From positions 1 through 47,328 of the forward strand of contig JAFIEP010000006.1 of NCBI GenBank assembly GCA_020832495.1: a stretch of 47,328 bases of DNA, read 5' to 3'. Shown here piece by piece: positions 1-33,089 of the stretch (position 1 is the stretch's first letter; each line of letters begins with the position of its first letter). A program made the position numbers and the translations under genes. This stretch comes from Acidimicrobiia bacterium. Lineage in GTDB: Bacteria > Actinomycetota > Acidimicrobiia > Acidimicrobiales > Acidimicrobilacustridaceae. The notes beneath the pieces are model-generated. The model was not told the DNA's origin. It ran no database searches and saw only the letters and a program-made list of their open reading frames with translations.

Positions 1-240
1 CCGCGCGGGGTCGGTGATGGTGTAGCGGCGGTGGGTACGGCCGTCACCGGCGGCGCCGGCGGTGACGGGTTCGAGTTCGTCGACGAGACCGTCGCGGCGC
101 AGCCGGTCGAGGGTCGTGTAGACCTGTCCGACGTTCAAGGGCCACACGCCGCCGGTACGTCGTTCGAACTCGGACTTGAGCTGGTAGCCGTGGGCATCGC
201 TCTCGTCGAGGAGCTGCAGGAGCGCAGCGCGGATGCTCAT
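1..240 (-). CDS. PadR family transcriptional regulator (C-terminus cut by window edge)
   Basis: The first 80 codons of a PadR-type repressor are visible, reading leftwards off the window. The start is the ATG complementary to 238-240. The N-terminus has the winged-helix signature: AALLQLLDE, then HGYQLKSEFERRTGG, then a recognition helix with VGQVYTTLDRLRRDGLV, and a wing region with TAGAAGDGRTHRRYTITD. Such proteins usually repress their own gene and a neighbouring transporter or membrane gene. A near-leaderless promoter and a strong palindrome lie immediately upstream (241-276), which supports autorepression. The effector domain lies outside the window, so the ligand cannot be guessed. Confidence 0.85.
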   Translation of the reverse strand, partial: MSIRAALLQLLDESDAHGYQLKSEFERRTGGVWPLNVGQVYTTLDRLRRDGLVDELEPVTAGAAGDGRTHRRYTITDPAR

Positions 241-276
241 AGATACCCAGTATACATACCGAGTATCTATTGGCAA
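241..276 (-). promoter_or_regulatory. padR promoter with overlapping palindromic operator
   Basis: On the minus strand a -35 TTGCCA (271-276) and a -10 TATACT (249-254) are separated by 16 bp and end about 8 bp before the padR ATG, so the transcript would be nearly leaderless. The 28-bp segment 241-268 is an imperfect palindrome: 22 of 28 positions match their complement, with outer arms AGATAC/GTATCT. It covers the -10 and most of the spacer, as expected for an autorepressor site. Confidence 0.6.
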
Positions 277-517
277 GGGCTGCGAAGAGAAGGGGCGGGC
301 GAGCAGCGCAACAGGCGCGAGCAGAGGGGGCGGCCCGCCCGGGCGGGCCGCCGCGTGGGCCGGCCGTCGCCGAGTCGTACCCGTGCTCTATGCTCCGAGC
401 GTTCCGGGAACCGCCGAGTGCTTCGGCAGTGCCCGTTGCCAGCGGGGGCACGCACCAGCGGGGCCTTCATCCACATCCCGGGGCTGCAGCCTGCAGCCGT
501 TCTCGGCGAGAGGCTTC

Positions 518-2386
518 GTGACCGCACTCACCGTCCACACCGCCACCGGCTCGCACACCATCGAGACCGGCCCGGCAGTGCTCGGCCGCGAGCACGACTG
601 CGACGTCCGTTGCACGAACCCCGAGGTGTCGCGTCACCACGCCGAGGTCCGGCTGGTGGACGGCCACTGGATGCTGCGTGACCTGGGCTCGAGTCACGGC
701 ACCTACCTGAACGGTCAGCGCATCGACCACGCGCCGGTGACCCACGGCGCCCGCGTGGTGTTGGGCGGTCCCGACACCGGTGAGCAACTCACCTTCGAGG
801 TGGCCGGCGCCCTGGCGCCGCCGCCGTCATCAGGGTCCTCAGCGCCGGCGGATCCGTCCGCCGCGGTGCCGCCGGGTCCGCCGTCGGGTCCCCCACCCGG
901 CCCGCCAGCGGGTCCGCCGCCGGGTCCAGCAGCCGATCCGGCGGCAGCCATGGCGGCGGGTCGCACCGTGCAGGTCAGCGAGCACGACACTTCGCTGCGT
1001 GTCCACGCCGACCGACGTGACTACGCCTTCGACACGTCGGTCGAGGTGGTGGTGGGTCGCGACCCGGCGGCCACCATCGTGGTCGACAACCCGTTGGTCT
1101 CCCGCCGCCACGCTCGCGTCCGCCACGACGGTGCGCACTGGGTGCTCGAGGACCTCGACAGCGCCCAGGGCACCTACATCCACGGAACGCGCACCCCCCG
1201 CCAGCAGCTCAGCGGGGTCACCACGGCCTGGTTGGGCCCACCCGATGCCGGCGAGAAGGTGCTGTTGCTCACCTCCGGCCCGACCGTCGAGCCCAGTCCG
1301 CCTCGACGGCGACTCCCGGTGCTGCTCGGGCTGCTGGCCGTCCTGCTCGTCGCCGCTGTGGTCACCGGGGTGCTCGTGGTGGCCGGCGGCGACGACGAGG
1401 AGGTGGCAGACCTCGACCTGCTGAAGAACGCAACGGTCCGTCTCGACCTCGAGACGTCGCAGTTCCTGTCGTTCGGCAGCGGCACGATCATCAGTCCCGA
1501 AGGGCTCATCCTCACCAACGCCCACGTGGTGGAGGGACACAGTGAGCCGGGCAGCGAACTGGTGGTGTCGTTCTTCGAGGGCGACGACGTCCCGGTGCGG
1601 GCGGCGTACACCGCGGCTGTCGTGGCCGAGGACCCCTACCTCGACCTGGCACTCGTCGAACTCGGCGCACCACTCGGTGACGACCCGCGCCGTCCGACCG
1701 ACCTGCCGTTCGTGCCGCTGGGCGACTCGGACCTGCTGGCCGTGGGCGATCCGCTCACCGTGCTCGGCCACCCCGGCATCGCCGAGTCGGCTTCGCTCAC
1801 CCTCACCACCGGCACGGTCGGGAGCTTCATCAGCGACCCGCTGCTCGAGGAGAGCCGAGCCTGGATCAACACCGAGGCGGCCATCGCCCAGGGCAACTCC
1901 GGAGGGTTGGCCGCCAACCGCAGCGGCGAGCTGGTGGCCATCCCCACCGCCATCCGCTTCGAGCGGGGATCAGACGGGTTCGAGGAACGCGTCAACCGTT
2001 TGCGCCCGGTCAACCTGGCGTTGCCCATGATCGAGGCGGTCAACGCCGGCCGGCGGTATCAGCCCGTCGAGTTCAGCGAGATGGATGCCCTGCCGGTGGT
2101 CGAACGCGACGTCGACGGTGTGTGCGAGTCGTCGAGCGCCAGCGGGTACAGCGAGGAGTTCGTGCTGGACCGGATGACAGTGGGGTCCCCGCTGTTCTAC
2201 GGCGTGATTGCCGACGCCCCCGACGATTCCGAGGACGCCGTGGTGGTCGACGAGCAGATGATCGTGCGCGAGGACATGTTCTGTTTGTCGCTCGTCCTGC
2301 CCGGTGCGCTCGAGGGCGGCGGCTTCGTGGTGCTGTTCTCGCTCGATCCCGATTACAGCCAGCTCGTGGGCCAGTTCACCTTCTGA
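518..2386 (+). CDS. FHA-FHA-transmembrane-trypsin-like serine protease
   Basis: The product is 622 residues from a GTG start with a GAGAGG ribosome site just upstream; the open frame runs further 5' but loses conservation there. Two forkhead-associated domains (about 1-97 with GRE and SRHH, and about 165-245 with GRD and SRRH) flank a Pro/Gly-rich linker. A membrane segment follows near 266-291 (LLGLLAVLLVAAVVTGVLVV), then a chymotrypsin-fold HtrA-like protease domain. The apparent triad is complete: His336 (TNAHVVEG), Asp376 (DLALVELG) and Ser461 (QGNSGG). No PDZ domain is seen; the last ~140 residues are unassigned. FHA domains bind phosphothreonine, so the cytoplasmic half probably senses Ser/Thr-kinase signalling and the protease acts outside the membrane. 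The substrate is unknown. Confidence 0.85.
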   Translation: MTALTVHTATGSHTIETGPAVLGREHDCDVRCTNPEVSRHHAEVRLVDGHWMLRDLGSSHGTYLNGQRIDHAPVTHGARVVLGGPDTGEQLTFEVAGALAPPPSSGSSAPADPSAAVPPGPPSGPPPGPPAGPPPGPAADPAAAMAAGRTVQVSEHDTSLRVHADRRDYAFDTSVEVVVGRDPAATIVVDNPLVSRRHARVRHDGAHWVLEDLDSAQGTYIHGTRTPRQQLSGVTTAWLGPPDAGEKVLLLTSGPTVEPSPPRRRLPVLLGLLAVLLVAAVVTGVLVVAGGDDEEVADLDLLKNATVRLDLETSQFLSFGSGTIISPEGLILTNAHVVEGHSEPGSELVVSFFEGDDVPVRAAYTAAVVAEDPYLDLALVELGAPLGDDPRRPTDLPFVPLGDSDLLAVGDPLTVLGHPGIAESASLTLTTGTVGSFISDPLLEESRAWINTEAAIAQGNSGGLAANRSGELVAIPTAIRFERGSDGFEERVNRLRPVNLALPMIEAVNAGRRYQPVEFSEMDALPVVERDVDGVCESSSASGYSEEFVLDRMTVGSPLFYGVIADAPDDSEDAVVVDEQMIVREDMFCLSLVLPGALEGGGFVVLFSLDPDYSQLVGQFTF

Positions 2387-2442
2387 ATCGCTCGCCCGAG
2401 CCAGCTGCAGGTCGAATGCCACGCGGGCTGCGTCGTGCCAGC

Positions 2443-4092
2443 TCAGCCGGGTTCGCGGGGCGGGTCGGCCTCGTCGGGGACGTCGGGCCTCGTGGTCGAG
2501 GTGGTGGTCGACTCACCCGACGGGGTGGTGGTGGAGGTCGCACCGTCCCCGGGACGAACGGCGTCGGTCACGTCACCGGGCGCCGGGACCACTGCGGCGA
2601 CGTCAGCGGCGTCGGGGGTCTCGTCCTCGAGCGGTTGGGTCACCGGTGCGAGGGCCCGATACGTGGCAGCGTTGGCCAGCACCAGCCCGACGTAGTGCCA
2701 CGACCGGTTGTAACCGAGCACGGCTCGGCGGGTGGCCTCGGGGTCGGTGATCGGCCCGCCGGCCCTACTGCAGAGGTAGAGCGCGGCGGCGAAGGTGGCG
2801 TCGTAGATGTTGTGCGGATCGGCGATGCCGTCGCCGTTGCCGTCCACGGCCCAGCGCACCCACGTGCCGGGAATGAACTGCATGGGACCGACGGCCCGGT
2901 CGTAGACGGGATCGCCGTCGTACAGGCCGCCGTCGGTGTCGCGGATGAGGGCGGTGCCCCGGGTGCCGTCGAGCGGGATGCCGATCAGCGCTGGGAAGAC
3001 CGTGCCGTCGGGATTGGGCCAACCGCCGCGATAGGTCCCGTGGCGGGACTCGACCGCACCCACCCCGGCGATGAGCGCCCAATCGATGCCACATCCCGGC
3101 GCTCGGGCGGCGGCGAGGGCTGCAGCGCGCCAGTAGGCGTCGAGGGAGGTGGGCGGGATGATGCCGCCCAGCGCGGCCATCACCTCATCGGGCACCGTCC
3201 GGGGCGGCACCACGCCGGTGGCCACCGGCTGGGCCGGTGGGACGCCGGCTCGCAGTTCAGCTTCGCGGGCGATCAGCTCGGCCAACGCCCGGTCTTCTTC
3301 CTCCCGCGCCCGGTGAGCGGCCGCCACCAGCTCGGCCCGCTGGGCGGCCAGGGTGCTGCGATGCTGCTGCAGTTCGTCGACCTGCGCAGCCAGCGCATGT
3401 TCGGCGGCTGCGGTGGTGGCGACGTGTTGGCCGGCGGTGGCCACCGTTCGGTCGGCGTCGACCACGGCGCCGACCAACTGGTCGTGCACCGTGGCCAGCA
3501 GGTGGAGGGTGCCCTCGACGTCAGCGTCGTGGCGGGCCGCCCCGAGGAGCTGTTGGCGCACCGAGTCGGGGATGCGACCGCCAGCGACGTAGGCAGCGAC
3601 CGCGTAGGTGCGGAGGTCGTCGTGGCTGGCCTCGCGTGCCGCGTGGGCGTTGGCGGCGGTGAGCAGGGCGTCCGCTGCGGCAGCTCGAGCTCGACGGTGC
3701 TCCGCCTCCAGTTCGAGGAGCCGGCCATCGACGTCCTCGAGTTCTGCGGTCAGCGCCAGGGCACCGGCGGCCAGTTCGGCAGAGGGGGCGACACCCTCGG
3801 GGTGGTCACCCAGCAGCGCATCGGCCGCGTCCGAAGATGGTTGGCCGGCTTCACGCGCCCAGGCGTCCGGCGGCGAGCCCACCGACGTGACGCCCAGCAC
3901 CGGTGCGAGGAGGGCAACGGTCACTGACGCCACCACGAACCGGCGAGCGCCTGGTCCGCGTCGGTGAAGCGCCGGGCGTCGACGCCGGGCGATGTCGGGG
4001 TGCTGCGCCGCTCGGCGGCTGGCGCGCCGGTCCGGGCAGGCGTGAGGACGTCGGTCAGAGGACCGAGGGCGGGACCAGCGAGGATGGAGCAT
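2443..4092 (-). CDS. Secreted lytic transglycosylase-like protein with coiled-coil N-terminus
   Basis: The product is 549 residues if the ATG at 4092 is used. That gives a long basic N-terminus before the hydrophobic signal FVVASVTVALLAPVLG; a GTG at 3936 would give a shorter leader, and neither has a clear ribosome site. Residues about 90-310 are Ala/Glu/Arg-rich with heptad-like pattern, typical of an extracytoplasmic coiled coil. The C-terminal half has the lysozyme-like transglycosylase fold: IAGVGAVESRHG with probable catalytic Glu348, AVGPMQFIPGTW, and LGYNRSWHYVGLVLANA. A Thr/Ser/Pro-rich tail follows. It should cleave peptidoglycan glycan strands in cell wall remodelling. It ends 56 bp from the convergent FHA protease. 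Confidence 0.85.
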   Translation of the reverse strand: MLHPRWSRPRSSDRRPHACPDRRASRRAAQHPDIARRRRPALHRRGPGARRFVVASVTVALLAPVLGVTSVGSPPDAWAREAGQPSSDAADALLGDHPEGVAPSAELAAGALALTAELEDVDGRLLELEAEHRRARAAAADALLTAANAHAAREASHDDLRTYAVAAYVAGGRIPDSVRQQLLGAARHDADVEGTLHLLATVHDQLVGAVVDADRTVATAGQHVATTAAAEHALAAQVDELQQHRSTLAAQRAELVAAAHRAREEEDRALAELIAREAELRAGVPPAQPVATGVVPPRTVPDEVMAALGGIIPPTSLDAYWRAAALAAARAPGCGIDWALIAGVGAVESRHGTYRGGWPNPDGTVFPALIGIPLDGTRGTALIRDTDGGLYDGDPVYDRAVGPMQFIPGTWVRWAVDGNGDGIADPHNIYDATFAAALYLCSRAGGPITDPEATRRAVLGYNRSWHYVGLVLANAATYRALAPVTQPLEDETPDAADVAAVVPAPGDVTDAVRPGDGATSTTTPSGESTTTSTTRPDVPDEADPPREPG

Positions 4093-4223
4093 TGGTGCGG
4101 CGCGTGTGGACCGACGATGGGTCCGACAGCAGGGGGCGATGCTACTGCGGACGGCGTTGCCGTGCGCTGCGCGCCCGCACGGGAGGTGGGGTGGTGGGGG
4201 CCGTCGGGTGGTCCGCTGGTGGG

Positions 4224-4835
4224 TCAGCCGCTGGTGGGCACAGCGTCGCCGTTGCTCGTGTCCTTGGTGGGTGGTCGGAGTTCGCAGCCGTCGAGGTGCC
4301 GGTCGAGCATCTCCTCCACGTCCTCGTGGCTGAGCTGGCGGTGCGCGGCGATGACCTGCCAGAACAGGGTGGCCCGCAGGTCGTCGAGGATGGCCCGGCC
4401 GTCGACGTCGGGCGACACCTCGCCACGCTCCACCGCCCGCTCCCACACCTTGTGGGCGTGGTCCAGTTGGGGGTCGAACTGCTCGGCCCACACGGTGGCC
4501 GAGAAGTCGGCGTCGCTGATGATGGCGGCGATCCGGTCCGCCACTGCGTCGCGGGGGTTCGCCGCCATGGAGGTGGCGGCGTGGTTCAGTACGGCGAGCA
4601 GGTCGGAGCGAAGATCGCCGTGATCGGGCGTCGGGTCGAGGCGACCGTCGTTGGTGGCGGCAGCGAACACCAGGTGCGCCCGTGTGGGCCAACGACGATA
4701 AACGGTGGGTTTGCCGACCCCTGCCCGGGTGGCCACCGCTTCCATCGACAACCCGCTGTAGCCCTCCTCCGCCATGATGGATCGCACGGCACCCAGAATC
4801 TGGTCGTCGAGCTTGGGGTCGCGCGGCCGGGGCAC
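4224..4835 (-). CDS. TetR family transcriptional regulator
   Basis: The product is 203 residues from a GTG at 4835 (VPRPRDPKLDDQILGAV). The TetR helix-turn-helix is clear: SMEAVATRAGVGKPTVYRRW at about 30-50, with the typical preceding helix IMAEEGYSGL. The C-terminal helical domain is of the AcrR/TetR_C type and its ligand is unknown. The gene is divergent from the FrnE-like oxidoreductase 84 bp away, the usual arrangement when the regulator controls its neighbour. A weak inverted repeat (GGCCA and TGGCC, 14 bp apart) lies in that gap. Confidence 0.85.
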   Translation of the reverse strand: MPRPRDPKLDDQILGAVRSIMAEEGYSGLSMEAVATRAGVGKPTVYRRWPTRAHLVFAAATNDGRLDPTPDHGDLRSDLLAVLNHAATSMAANPRDAVADRIAAIISDADFSATVWAEQFDPQLDHAHKVWERAVERGEVSPDVDGRAILDDLRATLFWQVIAAHRQLSHEDVEEMLDRHLDGCELRPPTKDTSNGDAVPTSG

Positions 4836-24688: not shown

Positions 24689-27073
24689 TCACCAGCGCAA
24701 CGTGCCCTGCACCTCGAGCGGGTCGCTCCAGCCCGAGGGGCTGGCCACTCGGGCGGTGACCTGACCGACCGGGCCGTCACCGGTGTCGACGACGGCACTG
24801 CTCGGCGTCCCGTCCTCGGGGGTCACCCGCACGTCGTGGGACCGTTCGTCGTCCACCTCGAACGACGTGGCCTCGAGCGCTTGGCCGGCACGCGGTGGCA
24901 CGAGGCGCACCTCGAGTTCGTCGATGGGACGTTCGTCGACGAACTGCATCGTGGGGCCGAGCGCCACCACGGTGCCGGCCCGTTGGTAGAGAGGGATCCG
25001 CTCGAGCGGTGCCTCGACGGTGATCCACCGACCCCCGTCGTCGGTGTCGATGAGCTCACCGGTCCACCAGTCGGCCCAGGTGCCGGCCGGGAGGTAGACG
25101 CGTCGTCGCCCGCTCGGGTCGAGAACGGGCGCCACCAGCAGCGCGTCGGCGAAGGTCCACTGGTCGGCGATGCGCCACGTGGAGGGGTCGTCCTGGTGGT
25201 CGACCACGAGCGGTCGGAGCATGGGAAGTGACCGGTCGACGGCGCGGCGAGCGGCCGCCCAGATGGTGGGCAGCAGCCGGTAGCGCAGGTCGAGCAGATC
25301 CCGGGCGATGTCGGCGATGTCGGGCCCCCAGGTGTCGAGCTCACGGTCGCTCTCGCCGTGGATGCGGGCGTGCGACCCGAACAGGCCGACCTGCAGCCAG
25401 CGGATGAGCATCTCGCCGTCGGGTCGCCCGAGGAACCCACCGATGTCCTGGCTCCAGAAGGGGAAGCCGGACAACCCGAACGACAGGCCACCACACAGCT
25501 GGGGCCCCAGGTTCGACCAGTCGGCGGTGGAGTCGCCGCCCCAGTGCAGCGGGTAGCGCTGCGACCCGGCCCACGCCGAACGAGCCCAGATGACGGGCTC
25601 ACCGGTGGCCGCCTCGGTGGCTTCCCACACGGCGCGGTTGTAGAGCAGCGGGTAGAGGTTGTGCATGCGATGGCCGGGCGTGCCGTCGTGATAGACGCCG
25701 TCGAGGGGGGCCTGCTCACCGAAGTCGGCCTTGATGGCGGCGGCGCCGAGGTCGAACAGCCGGCGGAGGTGGCGCTGGTAGACGGCGACTGCGTCGGGGT
25801 TGGTGAAGTCGATGCAGCCGACTCGCCCGCCCTCCCAGCCGGGCGAGTAGCAGAGGCCGACGTCGTAGATGCTGCCGTCGGGTTGCTGTACGAAGCCGTT
25901 GACAGCGGCCAGGTCGTCGAACAGCGCGGAGGGTTCGGGGATGTAGGGCAGCTGCCACAGGCACACGTGGACGCCGAGGTCGGCCATCTCGGCCAGGTAG
26001 CCGGCGGGGTCGGGGAAGCGCTCGGTGGAGAACTCGAGGTTGCAGAACCAGTCGCGGTCGTACCAGTGGGTGTCGAGGTGCAGGACGTCGAGCGGCAGTC
26101 GCTCCGCGCGTAGCCGGCGCACGAGTGACCGGGTCTCCTCGGCGGAACGATAGGAGATCTTGGATTGCCAGAAGCCGAACGACCACCGTGGTGGCAGGCC
26201 GGGCCGGCCGGTGAGTTCGGTGAGGCGGTCGAGGACGGTGGCGATGTCGCCGACCAGCACGAACAGGTCGTAGTGCGCATCCTCGAGGGCGACCTGGACA
26301 TCGGCGGCCACCCGACTGCCCACCCAGGCGGTCATGCGACACGAGTGGTTGGCCAACACGCCGTAGCCGTGGGTCGACACGAAGACCGGAACGTTCTTGT
26401 AGCTGCGCGGCGTGGTCGTGCCGGTGGCCTCCTCCATGTTCACGTCGATGGTCTGTCCCACCTTGTCGAGGCCGAGGAACTGCTCGCCGAAGCCGTAGAT
26501 GCACTCGCCGGGGCGCAGGCCGAACGTCTCGGTGGCCACCGGTCGACCGCTGTCGGTCACGCGGTGCACCCCGGTGGGAGAGGTGTCCCACAGCCCCCAC
26601 CGGTTCTTCTCCGGCCCACCGACGAGCACGATCTCCTCACCAGTGGCGTCGGCGATCAGCACCGAGAACGGGGCCAGGGTGACCACGACGGTCACCTGCT
26701 CGCCGACGAGGCGCACAATGCCGTCGACCTCCTCGGCGTCGCCGGCCACCGTGGCAGGGGGCACGTCGACAAGCATCGGCGTGTCGCCGTCAGGCACGGC
26801 GTCACCCTCGCAGTAGCGGAGCCGCACGCCGCCGGAGCCGACCAGGTCGATGCGGTACCGGCCGACGAGTTCTTGGCCCTCGTCGGGCAGGTCTGCTGCG
26901 GTGACCTCACCGGACTGGATGCGCGTTGCCGGCGCCACGGTGCGCAGCTCCACCCAGCCCGGACCGAGGTCGGCCACCTCTGCTCGGGCCACGCAGGCGC
27001 GCACCACCTGCCGAGACTCGAGGCGTCGGGTGTCCAGGCGGTCCTCCTGTGGGTGGGTGTCGTAGAGGCTCAT
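24689..27073 (-). CDS. Glycoside hydrolase family 31 alpha-glycosidase (YicI-like)
   Basis: The product is 794 residues from the ATG at 27073. The N-terminal beta domain contains GECIYGFGEQFLGLDKVGQ. The catalytic barrel has FGFWQSKISYRSAEE and VLHLDTHWYDRDWF. The nucleophile is Asp450 in KADFGEQAP, matching YicI KTDFGE, and the acid/base is Asp514 in HWGGDSTADW; GLSGFPFWSQDIGGF follows. The C-terminal beta domains are intact (VYLPAGTWADWWTGE, ERIPLYQRAGTVVALGP). There is no signal peptide, so it acts in the cytoplasm, most likely as an alpha-xylosidase or alpha-glucosidase on imported oligosaccharides. Its ATG overlaps the gntR stop (ATGA), so the two are translationally coupled. Confidence 0.93.
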   Translation of the reverse strand: MSLYDTHPQEDRLDTRRLESRQVVRACVARAEVADLGPGWVELRTVAPATRIQSGEVTAADLPDEGQELVGRYRIDLVGSGGVRLRYCEGDAVPDGDTPMLVDVPPATVAGDAEEVDGIVRLVGEQVTVVVTLAPFSVLIADATGEEIVLVGGPEKNRWGLWDTSPTGVHRVTDSGRPVATETFGLRPGECIYGFGEQFLGLDKVGQTIDVNMEEATGTTTPRSYKNVPVFVSTHGYGVLANHSCRMTAWVGSRVAADVQVALEDAHYDLFVLVGDIATVLDRLTELTGRPGLPPRWSFGFWQSKISYRSAEETRSLVRRLRAERLPLDVLHLDTHWYDRDWFCNLEFSTERFPDPAGYLAEMADLGVHVCLWQLPYIPEPSALFDDLAAVNGFVQQPDGSIYDVGLCYSPGWEGGRVGCIDFTNPDAVAVYQRHLRRLFDLGAAAIKADFGEQAPLDGVYHDGTPGHRMHNLYPLLYNRAVWEATEAATGEPVIWARSAWAGSQRYPLHWGGDSTADWSNLGPQLCGGLSFGLSGFPFWSQDIGGFLGRPDGEMLIRWLQVGLFGSHARIHGESDRELDTWGPDIADIARDLLDLRYRLLPTIWAAARRAVDRSLPMLRPLVVDHQDDPSTWRIADQWTFADALLVAPVLDPSGRRRVYLPAGTWADWWTGELIDTDDGGRWITVEAPLERIPLYQRAGTVVALGPTMQFVDERPIDELEVRLVPPRAGQALEATSFEVDDERSHDVRVTPEDGTPSSAVVDTGDGPVGQVTARVASPSGWSDPLEVQGTLRW

Positions 27074-27822
27074 TGGTCGGCTCCGGGCTCGGGCGTGGGC
27101 GGATGGGTGCTGGCGGTGGCATCGGCCGCCTCGGTTGGTGTGCTGCGCGCCAGGTAGTCGCAGAGGAGGTCGGCGGCGTCGTCGAACCGGTTGGCCTCGA
27201 GGGCGGTGAACTGTGCCTCGTGGGCAGCCACGTAGTCGTCGGGAGGGTGGGCTCGACCGGCGGCAGCAAGCAGTGAGCGGTAGGTTTCGCCCGTGTCGTT
27301 CACCACGAACAGGGTGGCCCACAAACCGCACGCCTCGAGGGTGAGGGCGAACTGTTCGGTATCGGCGACCAACCAGGCGTCGGAGTCGTGGCGAACACGC
27401 CAGGCCCCCTCGACCGCGGCCCGAGCGTCGTCGAGGTCGCCGGGGCGCATCGTCCGCTGGCAACGTCGGAAAGCGTCACCCACGAAGGCCGCCAACAGGT
27501 CGGCCAACTCGCCGGCCAGGTCGTGGCGGAGCTGACGGTCGGCGTGGGCCAGCAGCAGCGGCATGGCCCGCAGCGACCATTCCCGTCGTGGGCGGACCTC
27601 GACGCCCGAACCATGACGGACGGTGACCAGGCGCCAGTCCTCGAGTCGGGCATAGGCCTTCGACACCGAGGCCCGACTGGTACCGAAGCGCAGGGCGGCC
27701 TCCCGTTCGGTGGGTAGCCGGCCGCCGGCCGGTAGGCGGCCGGAGACGATGTCGTTGGCCAGGACCTCGACCACGGCATCGGGGCCGGGATGCGGAGTGG
27801 CGTGTGCGGCGCCGGGGACCAT
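27070..27822 (-). CDS. GntR family transcriptional regulator (FadR-like)
   Basis: The product is 250 residues from the ATG at 27822. The promoter places the likely transcript start at this codon, so the mRNA would be leaderless. The winged helix is DAVVEVLANDIVSGRLPAGGRLPTEREAALRFGTSRASVSKAYARLEDWRLVTVRHGSG (in pieces, about 14-72). The C-terminal all-helical domain (about 85-235) resembles FadR/FCD effector domains. It is coupled to the GH31 gene by an ATGA overlap and is probably a local repressor responding to a sugar or sugar derivative, bound at the palindrome 27830-27859. It could also control the divergent gene pair at 27939. Confidence 0.88.
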   Translation of the reverse strand: MVPGAAHATPHPGPDAVVEVLANDIVSGRLPAGGRLPTEREAALRFGTSRASVSKAYARLEDWRLVTVRHGSGVEVRPRREWSLRAMPLLLAHADRQLRHDLAGELADLLAAFVGDAFRRCQRTMRPGDLDDARAAVEGAWRVRHDSDAWLVADTEQFALTLEACGLWATLFVVNDTGETYRSLLAAAGRAHPPDDYVAAHEAQFTALEANRFDDAADLLCDYLARSTPTEAADATASTHPPTPEPGADQ

Positions 27823-27828
27823 GTCGAC

Positions 27829-27859
27829 ATATTGGCATAGCCAATTGGCTTTGCCAATA
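27829..27859 (-). promoter_or_regulatory. gntR-GH31 promoter with 30-bp nested palindrome
   Basis: On the minus strand TTGGCA (27852-27857) and CAATAT (27829-27834) form -35 and -10 elements 17 bp apart, and the start codon lies 6 bp beyond. Segment 27830-27859 is a 30-bp palindrome with 28 matching positions. Its order is TATTGGC, ATA, GCCAATTGGC, TTT, GCCAATA, so four TTGGC/GCCAA half-sites alternate. A bound GntR dimer or pair of dimers would cover the whole promoter. Confidence 0.75.
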
Positions 27860-27938
27860 GGCTCTGGCGGCGCACGTCGATCCACGGATCTGCGAGTGCA
27901 TGGCTCATGTGGTCACAGTGGTCTGCGAACATCGGTCC

Positions 27939-28427
27939 ATGACCTTCGGTCGATCTCCCGGTCCGCCGGCCACCGCGCGCCAGCTCACCCAGCTCAGCGA
28001 GCTGATCCAGGAGGCCGGTCACGTGGACTTCGCCGACGCACGAGGGCCGTTGGGACTCAACCAACGCCAGGCCGGTGGACGCTTCACCCGCGACGAGGCC
28101 GACGAACTGATTGCACGCCTCGAACACGAGGCCGATGTGGCCGCCGGGCGAGTGGCGTCGACCGGCGAGTCCCCGCACGACAACGTGAGTGGGCAGGGCC
28201 GGTCGCCGGCCCGGGAGCGTGGGACGCCGCCGAAGCGGTCGACTTCGTCGCCGAAGGCCGCCTCGACGACGTCGGGGCGCGACGCCGACCGGTCCCGGGC
28301 TGGGGGAGACCGCCCACCACCGGCCGGCGCGGGCGCTGGTCGCCAGGCGCGGAACCTGCGCACGGTCCCGACCGAACTGCTGGCGGCTGAGTTGCAGCGC
28401 CGAGGCTGGATCGTTGTCGAACCCTGA
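27939..28427 (+). CDS. Small conserved-looking protein of unknown function
   Basis: The product is 162 residues from the ATG at 27939 (MTFGRSPGPPATARQLTQL). The N-terminal ~75 residues look structured and helical: LSELIQEAGHVDFADARG, then LNQRQAGGRFTRDEADELIARLE. I believe similar segments occur in other actinobacterial small proteins, but I know no function. A low-complexity Ser/Arg/Pro/Gly linker (about 85-140) leads to a short helix NLRTVPTELLAAELQRRGWIV. The last 14 bp overlap the MFS start, so both are on one transcript. It is divergent from gntR. Confidence 0.6.
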   Translation: MTFGRSPGPPATARQLTQLSELIQEAGHVDFADARGPLGLNQRQAGGRFTRDEADELIARLEHEADVAAGRVASTGESPHDNVSGQGRSPARERGTPPKRSTSSPKAASTTSGRDADRSRAGGDRPPPAGAGAGRQARNLRTVPTELLAAELQRRGWIVVEP

Positions 28428-29766
28428 GCCGCCCCTGCACCTCTACCGTTGGCGGAGCCGACCGGTGCTCGGCGTGGCACTGTTGATGGTGGCGGTGGGC
28501 TTCTGCCAGTTCAGTCCCGCGGCGGTCCTCGCCGACGTGGCCGAGTACTTCGGCGAGCCGGGTGGTGCCGGTGACACCATTGCCGAGCAGGCTGGCTTGT
28601 CCGGTACGGCGCTCGGCATCGGCCTGGCCACCATCCGAGTGGCGTCGCTGGGTGCGTTGGCCCTTGCCGCCCTGGCCGACCGCCGCGGACGGCGCCGCAC
28701 CGCCTTGTGGTGGGTGAGCGCTGGCATCGCCATGACGGTGGTGGCGGCCGGTGCACCGTCGTACTGGTGGTTCGTGGTGGCACTGGCTCTCGCCCGACCG
28801 CTCCTCACCGCCACCAACACGATCGGGCAGGTGCTGGCCGCCGAGTACACCAGCGCCTCCCAACGCACCTGGGCGTTGGCCCTGGTGGCCGCCTCGTACG
28901 GCATCGGCGCCGGCTTGGTGGTGGTCCTGCGTGCGGTGCTCGAGACGCAGGTGTCGTTCCGGGGTGTGTTCGCCGCCGCCGCTGTGGCGTGGGTGTTGGT
29001 GGCGGTGGCTGCCCGGCTTCTCGTCGAGCCGGAACGCTTCACCCGCGCCGCGGGGGTGCGGCTCCGGCTCGACCGTTCGTGGTTCCGCCGTCCACCAGCC
29101 GCGGCGGTGGTCGATGACCCGGTGTCCGATGGTGCGACGGACGCCGCTCGAACCCCCGTGCCGGGGTCGTTCCGTCGACGCTTCGTGGTGGTGGCGGCGC
29201 TCGTCATGGCGGCCTCGGCGGTCACGGCGCCGGCCAACACGTTCCTGTTCGTGTTCGCCGAAGGTGTGCTCGACGCGTCGGCGAGCCTGACCGCAGCGCT
29301 CGTGGTGTCCTCGGCGCCGTTGGGTCTCGGCGGCCTGCTCGTGGGTCGAGCTCTGGCTGACCGCCTGGGTCGACGCCCCACCGTGGCCATCGGCCTGGCT
29401 GGCCTCGGTGTCGGCGCCGCAGTGGCCTACTCGGGGAGCACGACGGCGCTGGCGGTGGGGTTCCTGGGTGCGGTCTTCATCGGATCGGTGTTCGCCACCC
29501 CGATGTCGGCCATGGCCTCGGAGTTGTTCCCCACGTCGATCCGGGCCTCGGTGGCCGGGTGGATGGTGGTGCTCGGTGTCACCGCCGCCACCGCAGGGCT
29601 GTTCGGTGTTGGATGGCTGGCCGACCGGGCGGACAGCTTCGGTGTGGCCATGATGGCGGTGGCCGTCCCTGCGGTGTGCCTCTCGTTGGTGGTGGCCGCC
29701 GTTCCCGAGACCCGAGGTCTCGAGCTGGAGGACTCGGCGCCCGAATCTCTGCGCCACGCCCACTGA
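28414..29766 (+). CDS. MFS transporter
   Basis: The product is 450 residues if the TTG at 28414 is used (LSNPEPPLHLYRWRSRP); a GTG at 28465 is an alternative. The frame has about 12 hydrophobic segments. Motif A appears in the first half as ALADRRGRRRTALWW and is repeated in the second as RALADRLGRRPTVAIG, with FPTSIRASVAGW near the end, as in sugar-porter/MFS_1 proteins. It is a proton-coupled or facilitative transporter in the inner membrane. Divergent transcription from gntR-GH31 suggests it could import the glycoside hydrolysed by GH31, which is inference. An Asp/Arg-rich loop (about 195-250) separates the halves. Confidence 0.88.
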   Translation: MSNPEPPLHLYRWRSRPVLGVALLMVAVGFCQFSPAAVLADVAEYFGEPGGAGDTIAEQAGLSGTALGIGLATIRVASLGALALAALADRRGRRRTALWWVSAGIAMTVVAAGAPSYWWFVVALALARPLLTATNTIGQVLAAEYTSASQRTWALALVAASYGIGAGLVVVLRAVLETQVSFRGVFAAAAVAWVLVAVAARLLVEPERFTRAAGVRLRLDRSWFRRPPAAAVVDDPVSDGATDAARTPVPGSFRRRFVVVAALVMAASAVTAPANTFLFVFAEGVLDASASLTAALVVSSAPLGLGGLLVGRALADRLGRRPTVAIGLAGLGVGAAVAYSGSTTALAVGFLGAVFIGSVFATPMSAMASELFPTSIRASVAGWMVVLGVTAATAGLFGVGWLADRADSFGVAMMAVAVPAVCLSLVVAAVPETRGLELEDSAPESLRHAH

Positions 29767-30016: not shown

Positions 30017-30706
30017 TCAGCCGATCTCGTCGTGGAGGAGGCCGCGGAGGCTCTGCTCACACAGCAGGTCGACCAGGAACTCCTGCTCGGGCCACTCGAA
30101 CGATGGCTTGGCGATGAGCAGCGAGGCGAGGCCGTGCATGCCCATCCACAGCGCCAGCGAGGTCAGTTCCGGGCCGGGGCCATGGAATCGGCCGGCGTCG
30201 TAGGCATCGACCACGTTGCGGTAGAGGCTCTGGAAGGCCACCGAGTCGTGGAGCCCCTCCATGGTGGACTCGTGTCCCGTCCAGTCGTTGCGGTCCATGA
30301 ACAGCACGCGGTACGCAGCGGGGTGCTCGGTGGCGAAGGCGACATAGGCATGGCCAGCAGCGCGCACCCGCTCGACCGGGTCGTCGATGTCGGCGAGTGC
30401 CGTGTCCATCCGATCGGCCAGCCGATCGAAGAGCCGTTCGCACACGGCGTGGACCAGGCTGTCCTTGTCGTCGAAGTGGAGGTAGATGGCAGGCGAGGTC
30501 CGGCCCACCTTCTCGGCCACCGCCCGGATCGACACGGCCTGTTCGTCGCCGGCGGCCACCAACAACTCCTCGGTGGCATCGAGGATGTCCTCACGAAGTT
30601 GCTGGCCCTCTCCCCGACGGGCGCGGTGCCCACGACGCGCCGGACGGGCGCCCCCTGAGGTGCGCCCGTCGGCGGGATCGTCGCTTGGATCGGAGGTCGG
30701 GGTCAT
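30017..30706 (-). CDS. TetR family transcriptional regulator
   Basis: The product is 229 residues from the ATG at 30706. A disordered basic leader (about 1-35) precedes the DNA-binding domain: LREDILDATEELLVAAGDE and SIRAVAEKVGRTSPAIYLHFDDKDSL at about 55-80. The C-terminus has AAYRVLFMDRND and LALWMGMHGLASLLIAKPSF, the TetR_C_33-like pattern of AcrR relatives. It lies 40 bp behind the MMPL gene on the same strand and probably represses that operon, including itself, through the operator at 33113-33139. Confidence 0.87.
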   Translation of the reverse strand: MTPTSDPSDDPADGRTSGGARPARRGHRARRGEGQQLREDILDATEELLVAAGDEQAVSIRAVAEKVGRTSPAIYLHFDDKDSLVHAVCERLFDRLADRMDTALADIDDPVERVRAAGHAYVAFATEHPAAYRVLFMDRNDWTGHESTMEGLHDSVAFQSLYRNVVDAYDAGRFHGPGPELTSLALWMGMHGLASLLIAKPSFEWPEQEFLVDLLCEQSLRGLLHDEIG

Positions 30707-30746
30707 CGCCGAGACGACCGCCGGTCCCCGCCCTGGTGGTGGTGGC

Positions 30747-33089
30747 TCACGGCGTGCCGGCACCGACCGGTGGCGAGGCCGACTGGTCGGACGGGTCGGA
30801 TGGGGCGGCCTGCCCGACAGCGTCCGAGAGGTCGACGACCATCGAGTCAGCAGCGGCTTCGGCTGCAGCGTCACTCATGCCCACCGCATGGTAGATGCGC
30901 CGCATCCACCGCGGGGCCCACCAGTTGGCATCGCCGGCCATGACCATGAACGACGGCACCAGCAGGCCCCGGACCACGGTGGCGTCCATGAGCACCGCCA
31001 GGGCCAGACCGAGCCCGAACAGGGTCATGAAGGCCACGCTCGAGGTGGCGAAGGCCAGGAACACCACCGAGATGATGAGCGCCGCTGCGGTGATGACTCG
31101 ACCGGTGCGGGCCATGCCGGCCACCACCGATGCCGAGTTGTCCCCGGTGCGGTCGTACTCCTCCTTGATCCGGCTGAGCAGGAACACCTCGTAGTCCATC
31201 GACAGCCCGAAGGCGATGCAGAACATGAGGATGGGAGTGGTGGCGTCGAGCATGCCGGTGGGGGTGAAGCCGAGGATGCCCGACAGGTTGCCGTCCTGGA
31301 ACACCCACACCATGGCGCCGAGCGTGGCGGTCAGGCTCAGGGCGTTGAGCACCAGGGCCTTGAGGGGCACGAGGAGGCTCCCGAAGGTGAGGAACAGCAG
31401 CACGAAGATGACCGAGGCGATGATGGCCAGGGCCAGCGGCACCCGGGCCTGCAGGGCAGCCTTGGTGTCCACCAGCTCGGCGGAGGGTCCGCCCACCAGG
31501 ACCGTCGCTCCCGCCGCGGTGGTGGCGACCTCACGGATGTCGGCCACCAGTTGCTCGCCGTCGGCGGAGATGGGTTCCACTGCGGGCACAACTGACAGCC
31601 ACTCCACGTCGTCAGCGGCGAACCGTCGATCGCCGGGGGCGGCTGGGAGCACCTGCGTGCCGTCGAGCCACACGCCGCTGTCGCTGTCGACCCGTGAGAC
31701 CGATGCCAGCGTCGAGAGGACGGCGGCAGTGTCGGCGGCCGACGTGGCCAGGTCGGTATCGAGCGCGCTCTCGGCGGTGAACACGACCGTGGTGGCCTGG
31801 GCCTCGTTGGAGCTGTAGTCGCTGCGGAGGGCGTCGGACACCTGGCGGCTGGCGGCATCGACCGACAGCACCCGATCGTCGGGGGTGCCGAGGTTGATGT
31901 TCAGGAACGGGGTGCCCAGCGCCAAGAGCACCAGCACCACGACGGTGGCGATGGGGAGCGGACGGCGCATCACCGCAGTGGCCAGTCGGGCCCAGGTGCG
32001 CCCGGCGCGGGCGGCAGCCTCGGCGGGATCCCGGCGACGTCCGATCCGCCCGGCATCGATGCGGTGGCCCAACACCATGAGGATGGCGGGGAGCACCACG
32101 ACGGCGCCGGTCACGGCCAGCAGCACCACAGGGATGCCGGCATAGGCGAAGGACCGGAGGAAGCTGAGGGGGAAGATCAGCAGGGCGGCCAGCGACGCGG
32201 CGACGGTGATGCCGCTGATGGCCACCGCCCGCCCGGCGGTCATCACCGTGCGCAACAGGGCGGGTCGGGTCTCGAGGCCGCCGCTGCGTTCCTCCCGGTA
32301 GCGGGTGACCACGAACAACGAGTAATCGATGGCCAGGCCGAGCCCGAGCGCGGTGGTCAGGTTGAGGGCGAAGATCGACACCTCGGTGACCGAGGCCAGC
32401 AGCTCGAGTACGACGAAGGTGCCGACGATGGCGAACCCGCCGATGAGCACGGGCAGCAGGGCGGCGACCACGCTGCGGAACACCCACAGCAACAGCAGCA
32501 GGGTGAGGGGGAGGGCGATGAGTTCGGCGGTGCGCAGGTCGCTCTCGATGGTCTCGCCCACCTCGTGGAACACTGCGGCCTGGCCACCGACGGCCACCTC
32601 GAGGCCGTCGCCGGTCGTGCCCGTATAGCGCTCGATCAGCTCGCCCACCCGGTCGTTCACTGCGGTGTCGCTGCCGTTGATGCTGGCCAGCACCAGCGCC
32701 GAGCGGCGGTCGTCGGCGGCGAGTGGTGGCGCACCACCGAGCGACCAGTAGCTGATGACGTCGGCTACGCCCTCCTCGGCGGCCAGCCGGTCGGTGAGGG
32801 CCAGGCCGGCGTCGCGGATGGTGGTCACGTCGACGGTGGTGGCGGCGTCCGTGGTCCCCGGGTCAGGGCGGGCGAGCAGGACGAGGTTCGGAGCGTCCGC
32901 GCCGAAGCGATCCTCGATCACCTCCCGGGCGACGGTGGACTCTGCGCCCGGAGCGGAGAAACCGCCCGAGCTGAGCGAGTTGGCCACGTCGGCACCGATG
33001 GCGCCGGCGCCGGCGAAGGCGATGGCGGCGAGGATGACGACCAACCACGCCCGCCGTGCAACTGCGGATCCGAGTCGTGCGAAGAGCAT
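30747..33089 (-). CDS. MMPL family membrane transporter
   Basis: The product is 780 residues from the ATG at 33089 with AGGAGG upstream. It has the RND/MMPL layout: one TM segment, a large extracytoplasmic loop (about 40-185), five or six TM segments, a second loop and a second TM set. Family motifs are LGLGLAIDYSLFVVTRYREE in the first half and FGLSMDYEVFLLSRIKEEYDRTG in the second, each with the proton-relay Asp-Tyr. The C-terminal ~50 residues are soluble and Ser/Asp-rich. It is likely a proton-driven exporter of lipids, siderophores or drugs; the substrate is not predictable. It is the first gene of an operon with a TetR regulator. Confidence 0.93.
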   Translation of the reverse strand: MLFARLGSAVARRAWLVVILAAIAFAGAGAIGADVANSLSSGGFSAPGAESTVAREVIEDRFGADAPNLVLLARPDPGTTDAATTVDVTTIRDAGLALTDRLAAEEGVADVISYWSLGGAPPLAADDRRSALVLASINGSDTAVNDRVGELIERYTGTTGDGLEVAVGGQAAVFHEVGETIESDLRTAELIALPLTLLLLLWVFRSVVAALLPVLIGGFAIVGTFVVLELLASVTEVSIFALNLTTALGLGLAIDYSLFVVTRYREERSGGLETRPALLRTVMTAGRAVAISGITVAASLAALLIFPLSFLRSFAYAGIPVVLLAVTGAVVVLPAILMVLGHRIDAGRIGRRRDPAEAAARAGRTWARLATAVMRRPLPIATVVVLVLLALGTPFLNINLGTPDDRVLSVDAASRQVSDALRSDYSSNEAQATTVVFTAESALDTDLATSAADTAAVLSTLASVSRVDSDSGVWLDGTQVLPAAPGDRRFAADDVEWLSVVPAVEPISADGEQLVADIREVATTAAGATVLVGGPSAELVDTKAALQARVPLALAIIASVIFVLLFLTFGSLLVPLKALVLNALSLTATLGAMVWVFQDGNLSGILGFTPTGMLDATTPILMFCIAFGLSMDYEVFLLSRIKEEYDRTGDNSASVVAGMARTGRVITAAALIISVVFLAFATSSVAFMTLFGLGLALAVLMDATVVRGLLVPSFMVMAGDANWWAPRWMRRIYHAVGMSDAAAEAAADSMVVDLSDAVGQAAPSDPSDQSASPPVGAGTP

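Follow-up and report, generated by a model that had tools for sequence, protein, structure and literature searches.

Among the described systems, those closest to the locus considered here are the operators of GntR-family regulators, in particular those of the FadR subfamily, which are palindromic, with arms of the form TKGT/ACMA and, in most cases, a 3-nt centre (PMC4494728). The regulators of this subfamily have a C-terminal domain of 150-170 aa and their ligands are usually carboxylic acids; double sites at a near-constant distance were described for 29 of the 100 divergons that hold double sites and a transcription factor gene, and auxiliary, weaker boxes whose distance to the main site's centre is 7-12 nt were described in 13 groups (PMC4494728). 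In E. coli the box of PdhR, AATTGGTnnnACCAATT, has the form TTGGT-N3-ACCAA and is placed upstream of the regulator's own operon (PMC7660256). A further point of reference is NanR, several dimers of which stand side by side on the close repeats of the (GGTATA)3 operator (PMC8012715).

We note a comparable arrangement in a window of 47,328 nucleotides (the whole stretch of DNA that was analysed, from contig JAFIEP010000006.1 of an Acidimicrobiia bacterium), where a near-perfect, strandless palindrome of 30 bp, TATTGGCATAGCCAATTGGCTTTGCCAATA, occupies positions 27830-27859 with 14 of 15 symmetric pairs matching, or 28 of 30 bases. An earlier note on this DNA had pointed to the palindrome, with its start set one base early at 27829, and to four alternating TTGGC/GCCAA/TTGGC/GCCAA half-sites within it; both descriptions were borne out, the half-sites starting at 27832, 27840, 27845 and 27853. 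They make up two operator-like sites, likewise without strand, namely O1 (TTGGCATAGCCAA, 27832-27844), which is TTGGC-ATA-GCCAA, and, directly abutting it with a centre-to-centre distance of 13 bp, O2 (TTGGCTTTGCCAA, 27845-27857), which is TTGGC-TTT-GCCAA. Their arms and 3-nt centre fit TKGT-N3-ACMA, with C replacing the core T in all four half-sites. In our judgement a pair of abutting TTGGC-N3-GCCAA sites of 13 bp describes the palindrome better, the putative operator being two sites of usual length and not one overlong site. We would drop the suggestion that the element is much longer than a usual GntR site, since either half, at 13 bp and with a 3-nt centre, has the length usual in the FadR subfamily, and two such halves are present; the companion suggestion, of space for two dimers on a symmetric operator-like element, is supported.

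With regard to PdhR, the likeness lies in the odd, 3-nt centre, in the TTGG/CCAA arms and in the position upstream of the regulator's own operon, whereas the core is GGC-N3-GCC here as compared to GGT-N3-ACC, and two copies abut without spacing (PMC7660256). NanR likewise places several GntR dimers on close repeats, but there the repeats are direct and bound by three dimers, whose cooperativity relies on an N-terminal extension of 32 residues (PMC8012715); the protein encoded here, unlike NanR, has 15 residues before its matched winged helix. The FadR-subfamily divergons share the fixed-distance pair of sites, placed there too between the gene of a regulator and an operon that diverges from it, but their core is GT/AC and the sections consulted describe no directly abutting pair (PMC4494728). 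A survey of the literature, largely without subscription papers, returned neither a TTGGC-N3-GCCAA GntR site nor a GntR-controlled GH31 alpha-xylosidase, which does not prove their absence.

We consider it probable that the gntR-GH31 operon is autorepressed by two GntR dimers on adjacent operators, the palindrome being the operator of the adjoining GntR with two abutting 13-bp sites in the FadR layout. From the letters of the DNA we infer GntR binding, occupancy by two dimers and repression: the dimers would stand side by side with centres 13 bp, or about 1.2 helical turns, apart, and would cover the -35, the spacer and the -10 of the gntR-GH31 promoter, such that RNA polymerase would be blocked. 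A ligand linked to the substrate of the GH31 enzyme, or to its breakdown, might then release the dimers, and release would give a leaderless gntR message, with the GH31 hydrolase made via ATGA coupling. In favour of this we count the pair of exact 13-mers set edge to edge between gntR and the divergent gene, the single occurrence of the doubled form in the genome, the FadR-like layout and base-contact residues, the double sites described for FadR-subfamily divergons, the tandem pairs in four other genomes of the phylum (below) and the promoter match that falls on the site; against it we count the GC core, the Ser at the FadR Arg49 position, the failure to find an orthologous gntR, or TTGGYNNNRCCAA at other GH31 loci, and the weakness of the promoter match. 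The two-dimer reading is the simplest, and its main variant is one dimer with an auxiliary box: a single dimer would bind at one 13-mer or at the centre of the 30-mer, with the rest serving as an auxiliary half-site or for the divergent gene. Measured from the centre of one 13-mer, the nearer half-site of the other is at about 9 nt, within the 7-12 nt given for auxiliary boxes (PMC4494728), and the outer symmetry would permit a single complex centred between 27844 and 27845; the two 13-mers are, however, alike in being perfect, so that neither is the weaker one, and we regard the variant as quite improbable.

The regulator proposed to bind as two dimers is encoded by gntR (27070-27822, minus strand), a protein of 250 aa with a GntR winged helix (Pfam PF00392, E 4e-16; residues 16-76, 58.9 bits against a cut-off of 27), and the start of the gene at 27822 is 7 bp from the edge of the palindrome. 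When residues were matched by spacing and by alignment to the Rv0494-FadR chain, using the contact table of PMC4494728, Glu39, Arg40, Arg50, His70 and Gly71 fell at the positions of FadR Glu34, Arg35, Arg45, His65 and Gly66, and Ala51, Ser54 and Lys55 at those of Thr46, Arg49 and Glu50; FadR Arg49 is a backbone contact in the same table (PMC4494728). On this correspondence the GntR winged helix of the protein has arginines where FadR contacts bases. With phmmer, residues 17-127 align to the Rv0494/FadR chain. The C-terminal part of about 170 aa agrees in length with the subfamily's 150-170 aa; a Pfam search of it with a limit of E 10 gave no match, so neither FCD nor FadR_C, and its one PDB match when taken alone was an unrelated esterase (E 0.96). 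Because the C-terminal part is without a Pfam family, the protein cannot be filed in the FadR subfamily. For this reason, and as carboxylic acids are the usual ligands of that subfamily, the oligosaccharide that the earlier note proposed as effector is no more than a candidate.

Two features count against the GntR as the binder of the two sites, namely the Ser that its residue 54 presents at the FadR Arg49 position, and the GC core of the sites, which departs from the GT/AC consensus of the GntR family (PMC4494728). Both would suit another regulator, of LacI, TetR or MarR type, that binds the palindrome and controls gntR-GH31, the divergent genes or both. We hold this to be unlikely: a regulator gene is already present at a distance of 7 bp, the genome has no second copy of the doubled site, and the 13-mer with its 3-nt centre is FadR-like as opposed to LacI-type sites, in which the centre is usually even.

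The doubling can be set against chance at the level of both the window and the genome. None of 100 first-order Markov copies of the window had a 30-bp palindrome with at least 14 of 15 pairs, and none had the doubled site; palindromes with at least 13 of 15 pairs number three in the window (the two others are at 40 and 326) as compared to a mean of 0.39 in the Markov copies. In the assembly of 4.46 Mb there are three occurrences of TTGGCNNNGCCAA, two of them O1 and O2 and the third within a 497-aa reading frame, and a control pattern occurs at six; the single 13-mer is thus not above chance, and significance rests on the exact doubling, which is found once in the assembly. A chance palindrome was ruled out by the Markov copies of the window and the genome counts, and a repeated element by that single occurrence of the doubled site. 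A regulon of scattered single sites is unsupported, as places within one mismatch of the single 13-mer number 125 in the assembly versus 149 for the control pattern.

With regard to the promoter, it had been claimed that the palindrome contains both the -35 and the -10, and that the message must be leaderless. At the standard threshold, a promoter scan of 27700-28100 gave no match. A relaxed scan gave a weak promoter-like match below that threshold on the minus strand at 27829-27857 (TTGGCA at 27857-27852, 17 nt, CAATAT at 27834-27829; 5/6 plus 3/6, that is 8/12), the sole match in 27820-27960. This weak match does lie on the palindrome, except that the last base of CAATAT falls 1 nt outside it. 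First-order Markov copies of 27820-27960, a gap that is A+T-richer, held a mean of 0.64 matches of 8/12, with 45% of the copies holding at least one, so the promoter match alone is not significant; nine matches of this quality occur on both strands of the whole window. A leaderless start was taken to call for a TA-like -10 some 10 bp upstream of the start codon, together with no Shine-Dalgarno. CAATAT ends 6 nt from the gntR ATG, a spacing that fits, and no Shine-Dalgarno was seen by eye in the last 20 nt before this ATG; TANNNT does not occur in the 100 nt before it. Given the weak -10, we would reduce "must" to plausible for a leaderless gntR message.

Alternatively, the inverted repeat might act in RNA, as a hairpin (an attenuator or mRNA stabiliser) within a longer transcript. 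The single strand has a folding energy of -17.7 kcal/mol (z -4.28, with 0 of 200 shuffles as good), but such folding is expected of any DNA palindrome; there is no terminator-like match in 27700-28100 and no Rfam match at gathering scores in 27500-28500, and a leaderless start would leave the repeat outside the gntR message. A role in RNA seems to us very improbable.

The coupling that the autorepression reading employs would be provided by an ATGA overlap between the gntR stop and the GH31 start at 27073-27070, exactly as the earlier note had it. The second gene (24689-27073, minus strand) encodes a GH31 glycoside hydrolase of 794 aa, identified by Pfam, with PF01055, PF21365 and PF13802 each above cut-off; the query (P0002) with which the searches were run is longer by one codon at its start. 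Among solved structures, those nearest to the enzyme are the alpha-glucosidase 5f7c (E 4.2e-131) and YicI of E. coli. The NCBIfam equivalog for YicI-type alpha-xylosidases (PRK10658) gave 497.2 bits, below the cut-off of 606, and xylosidase or glucosidase are therefore both possible.

An orthologue of gntR was found in none of the genus, family, class, phylum or plasmid searches. For the genus there is no other genome to compare. At E<=1e-12 two of the 37 family genomes gave a match, one of them its own and the other 29% identical (E 6.4e-14), and at E<=1e-14 its own genome was the only one among 395 class and 396 phylum genomes, these sets being samples of larger groups in which up to six candidates were scored per genome. 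A contig search gave four loci, matching only residues within 3-87, and none of ten plasmid records covered 80% of the query. For GH31, matches in other genomes numbered three at E<=1e-100 and 30 at E<=1e-110 (one without a locus). TTGGYNNNRCCAA was present in none of the 32 GH31 loci from other genomes, which were taken with flanks of 1.5 kb and in some cases stop at contig ends. One of these 32 has a gntR-like frame beside GH31 (L035, E 0.0025 with a rough home-made HTH profile), for which Pfam GntR gave 24.7 bits, below the cut-off of 27, and with this locus in mind the gntR-GH31 pairing may reach beyond the window. Beside the 58%-identical GH31 of another genus of the family (L013, 5,154 bases) there is no gntR frame, and nothing there comes closer to the site than two mismatches.

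Two of the GH31 loci can be described further. At L035, positions 470-1268, the gntR-like gene is split over frames and directly precedes GH31 in another family of the phylum; by our own, piecewise reading, an FCD-like tail would be in another frame. At L014, positions 3-4730, from the same order, a GH31 relative that is 35% identical appears, as the locus reads, to stand between likely genes for a sugar ABC transporter binding protein and permease.

A looser doubled pattern, TTGGYNNNRCCAATTGGYNNNRCCAA, searched with at most one mismatch, matched in five of the 396 phylum genomes, its own and four that belong to a different family of the phylum (G502, G512, G522 and G531), as compared to one for the control pattern. 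The four loci concerned (L018, L019, L020 and L021) each have a tandem pair of FadR/PdhR type at 1501-1526, in the 13-bp register and with one mismatch to the pattern. Like O1 and O2, these are two 13-bp sites in the same register with variable spacers, but they differ in their mostly GT/AC core and in preceding a reading frame that is not gntR. In L019, the sole frame tested, this has Fer4 domains, and by our reading it may be part of a 2-oxoacid:ferredoxin oxidoreductase. The four represent two genera, between which arms and 13-bp register are conserved and the spacers and flanks vary; as three of the four genomes are of one genus and near-identical, the pairs represent about two independent observations. 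The recurrence of the register is counted in favour of autorepression by two GntR dimers, and the mostly GT/AC core and the different kind of gene downstream against it.

A bolder proposal, which we find doubtful and offer tentatively, is that this GntR stands outside the Pfam-described subfamilies (no FCD, and a changed recognition helix with Ser at FadR Arg49), that its operator core has shifted from GT/AC to GC/GC, that the two seamless 13-bp sites are read as a cooperative unit over a leaderless promoter, and that the 13-bp register arose separately before an oxidoreductase-like gene in another family. If this were true, including the separate origin, it would represent a recurrent operator architecture. 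The locus in itself would offer a compact test case for the packing of GntR dimers on adjacent sites and for a change of the family's GT core. In other respects it looks like an ordinary, self-controlled promoter switch of one sugar-hydrolase operon, with a slightly unusual layout of sites.

On the other side of the palindrome, the first divergent gene encodes a small protein (27939-28427, plus strand) whose reading frame is open from the ATG at 27900; the matches of several relatives begin near residue 13 of this frame, which suggests a start at 27939. It has no Pfam match. Sequences that resemble it, for the most part in the N-terminal half, are present in 20 of 36 other genomes of the family (21 of 37 if its own is counted), and TTGGYNNNRCCAA is absent from all seven inspected loci with such relatives. 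An MFS transporter frame is listed at 28189-29766 (plus strand); translation of the transporter probably begins close to where the small frame ahead of it ends, which would make it the second divergent gene, and a search for it in the family's 36 other genomes at E<=1e-60 gave no match. The transporter proposed in the earlier note is thus divergent, but the small frame (27900 or 27939 to 28427) stands between, and its direct control is unsupported, the first gene being that of the small protein and the MFS gene the second. Control of both sides by the palindrome is possible. Elsewhere in the window, at 30017-33089, a TetR-family regulator adjoins an MMPL transporter on the same strand.
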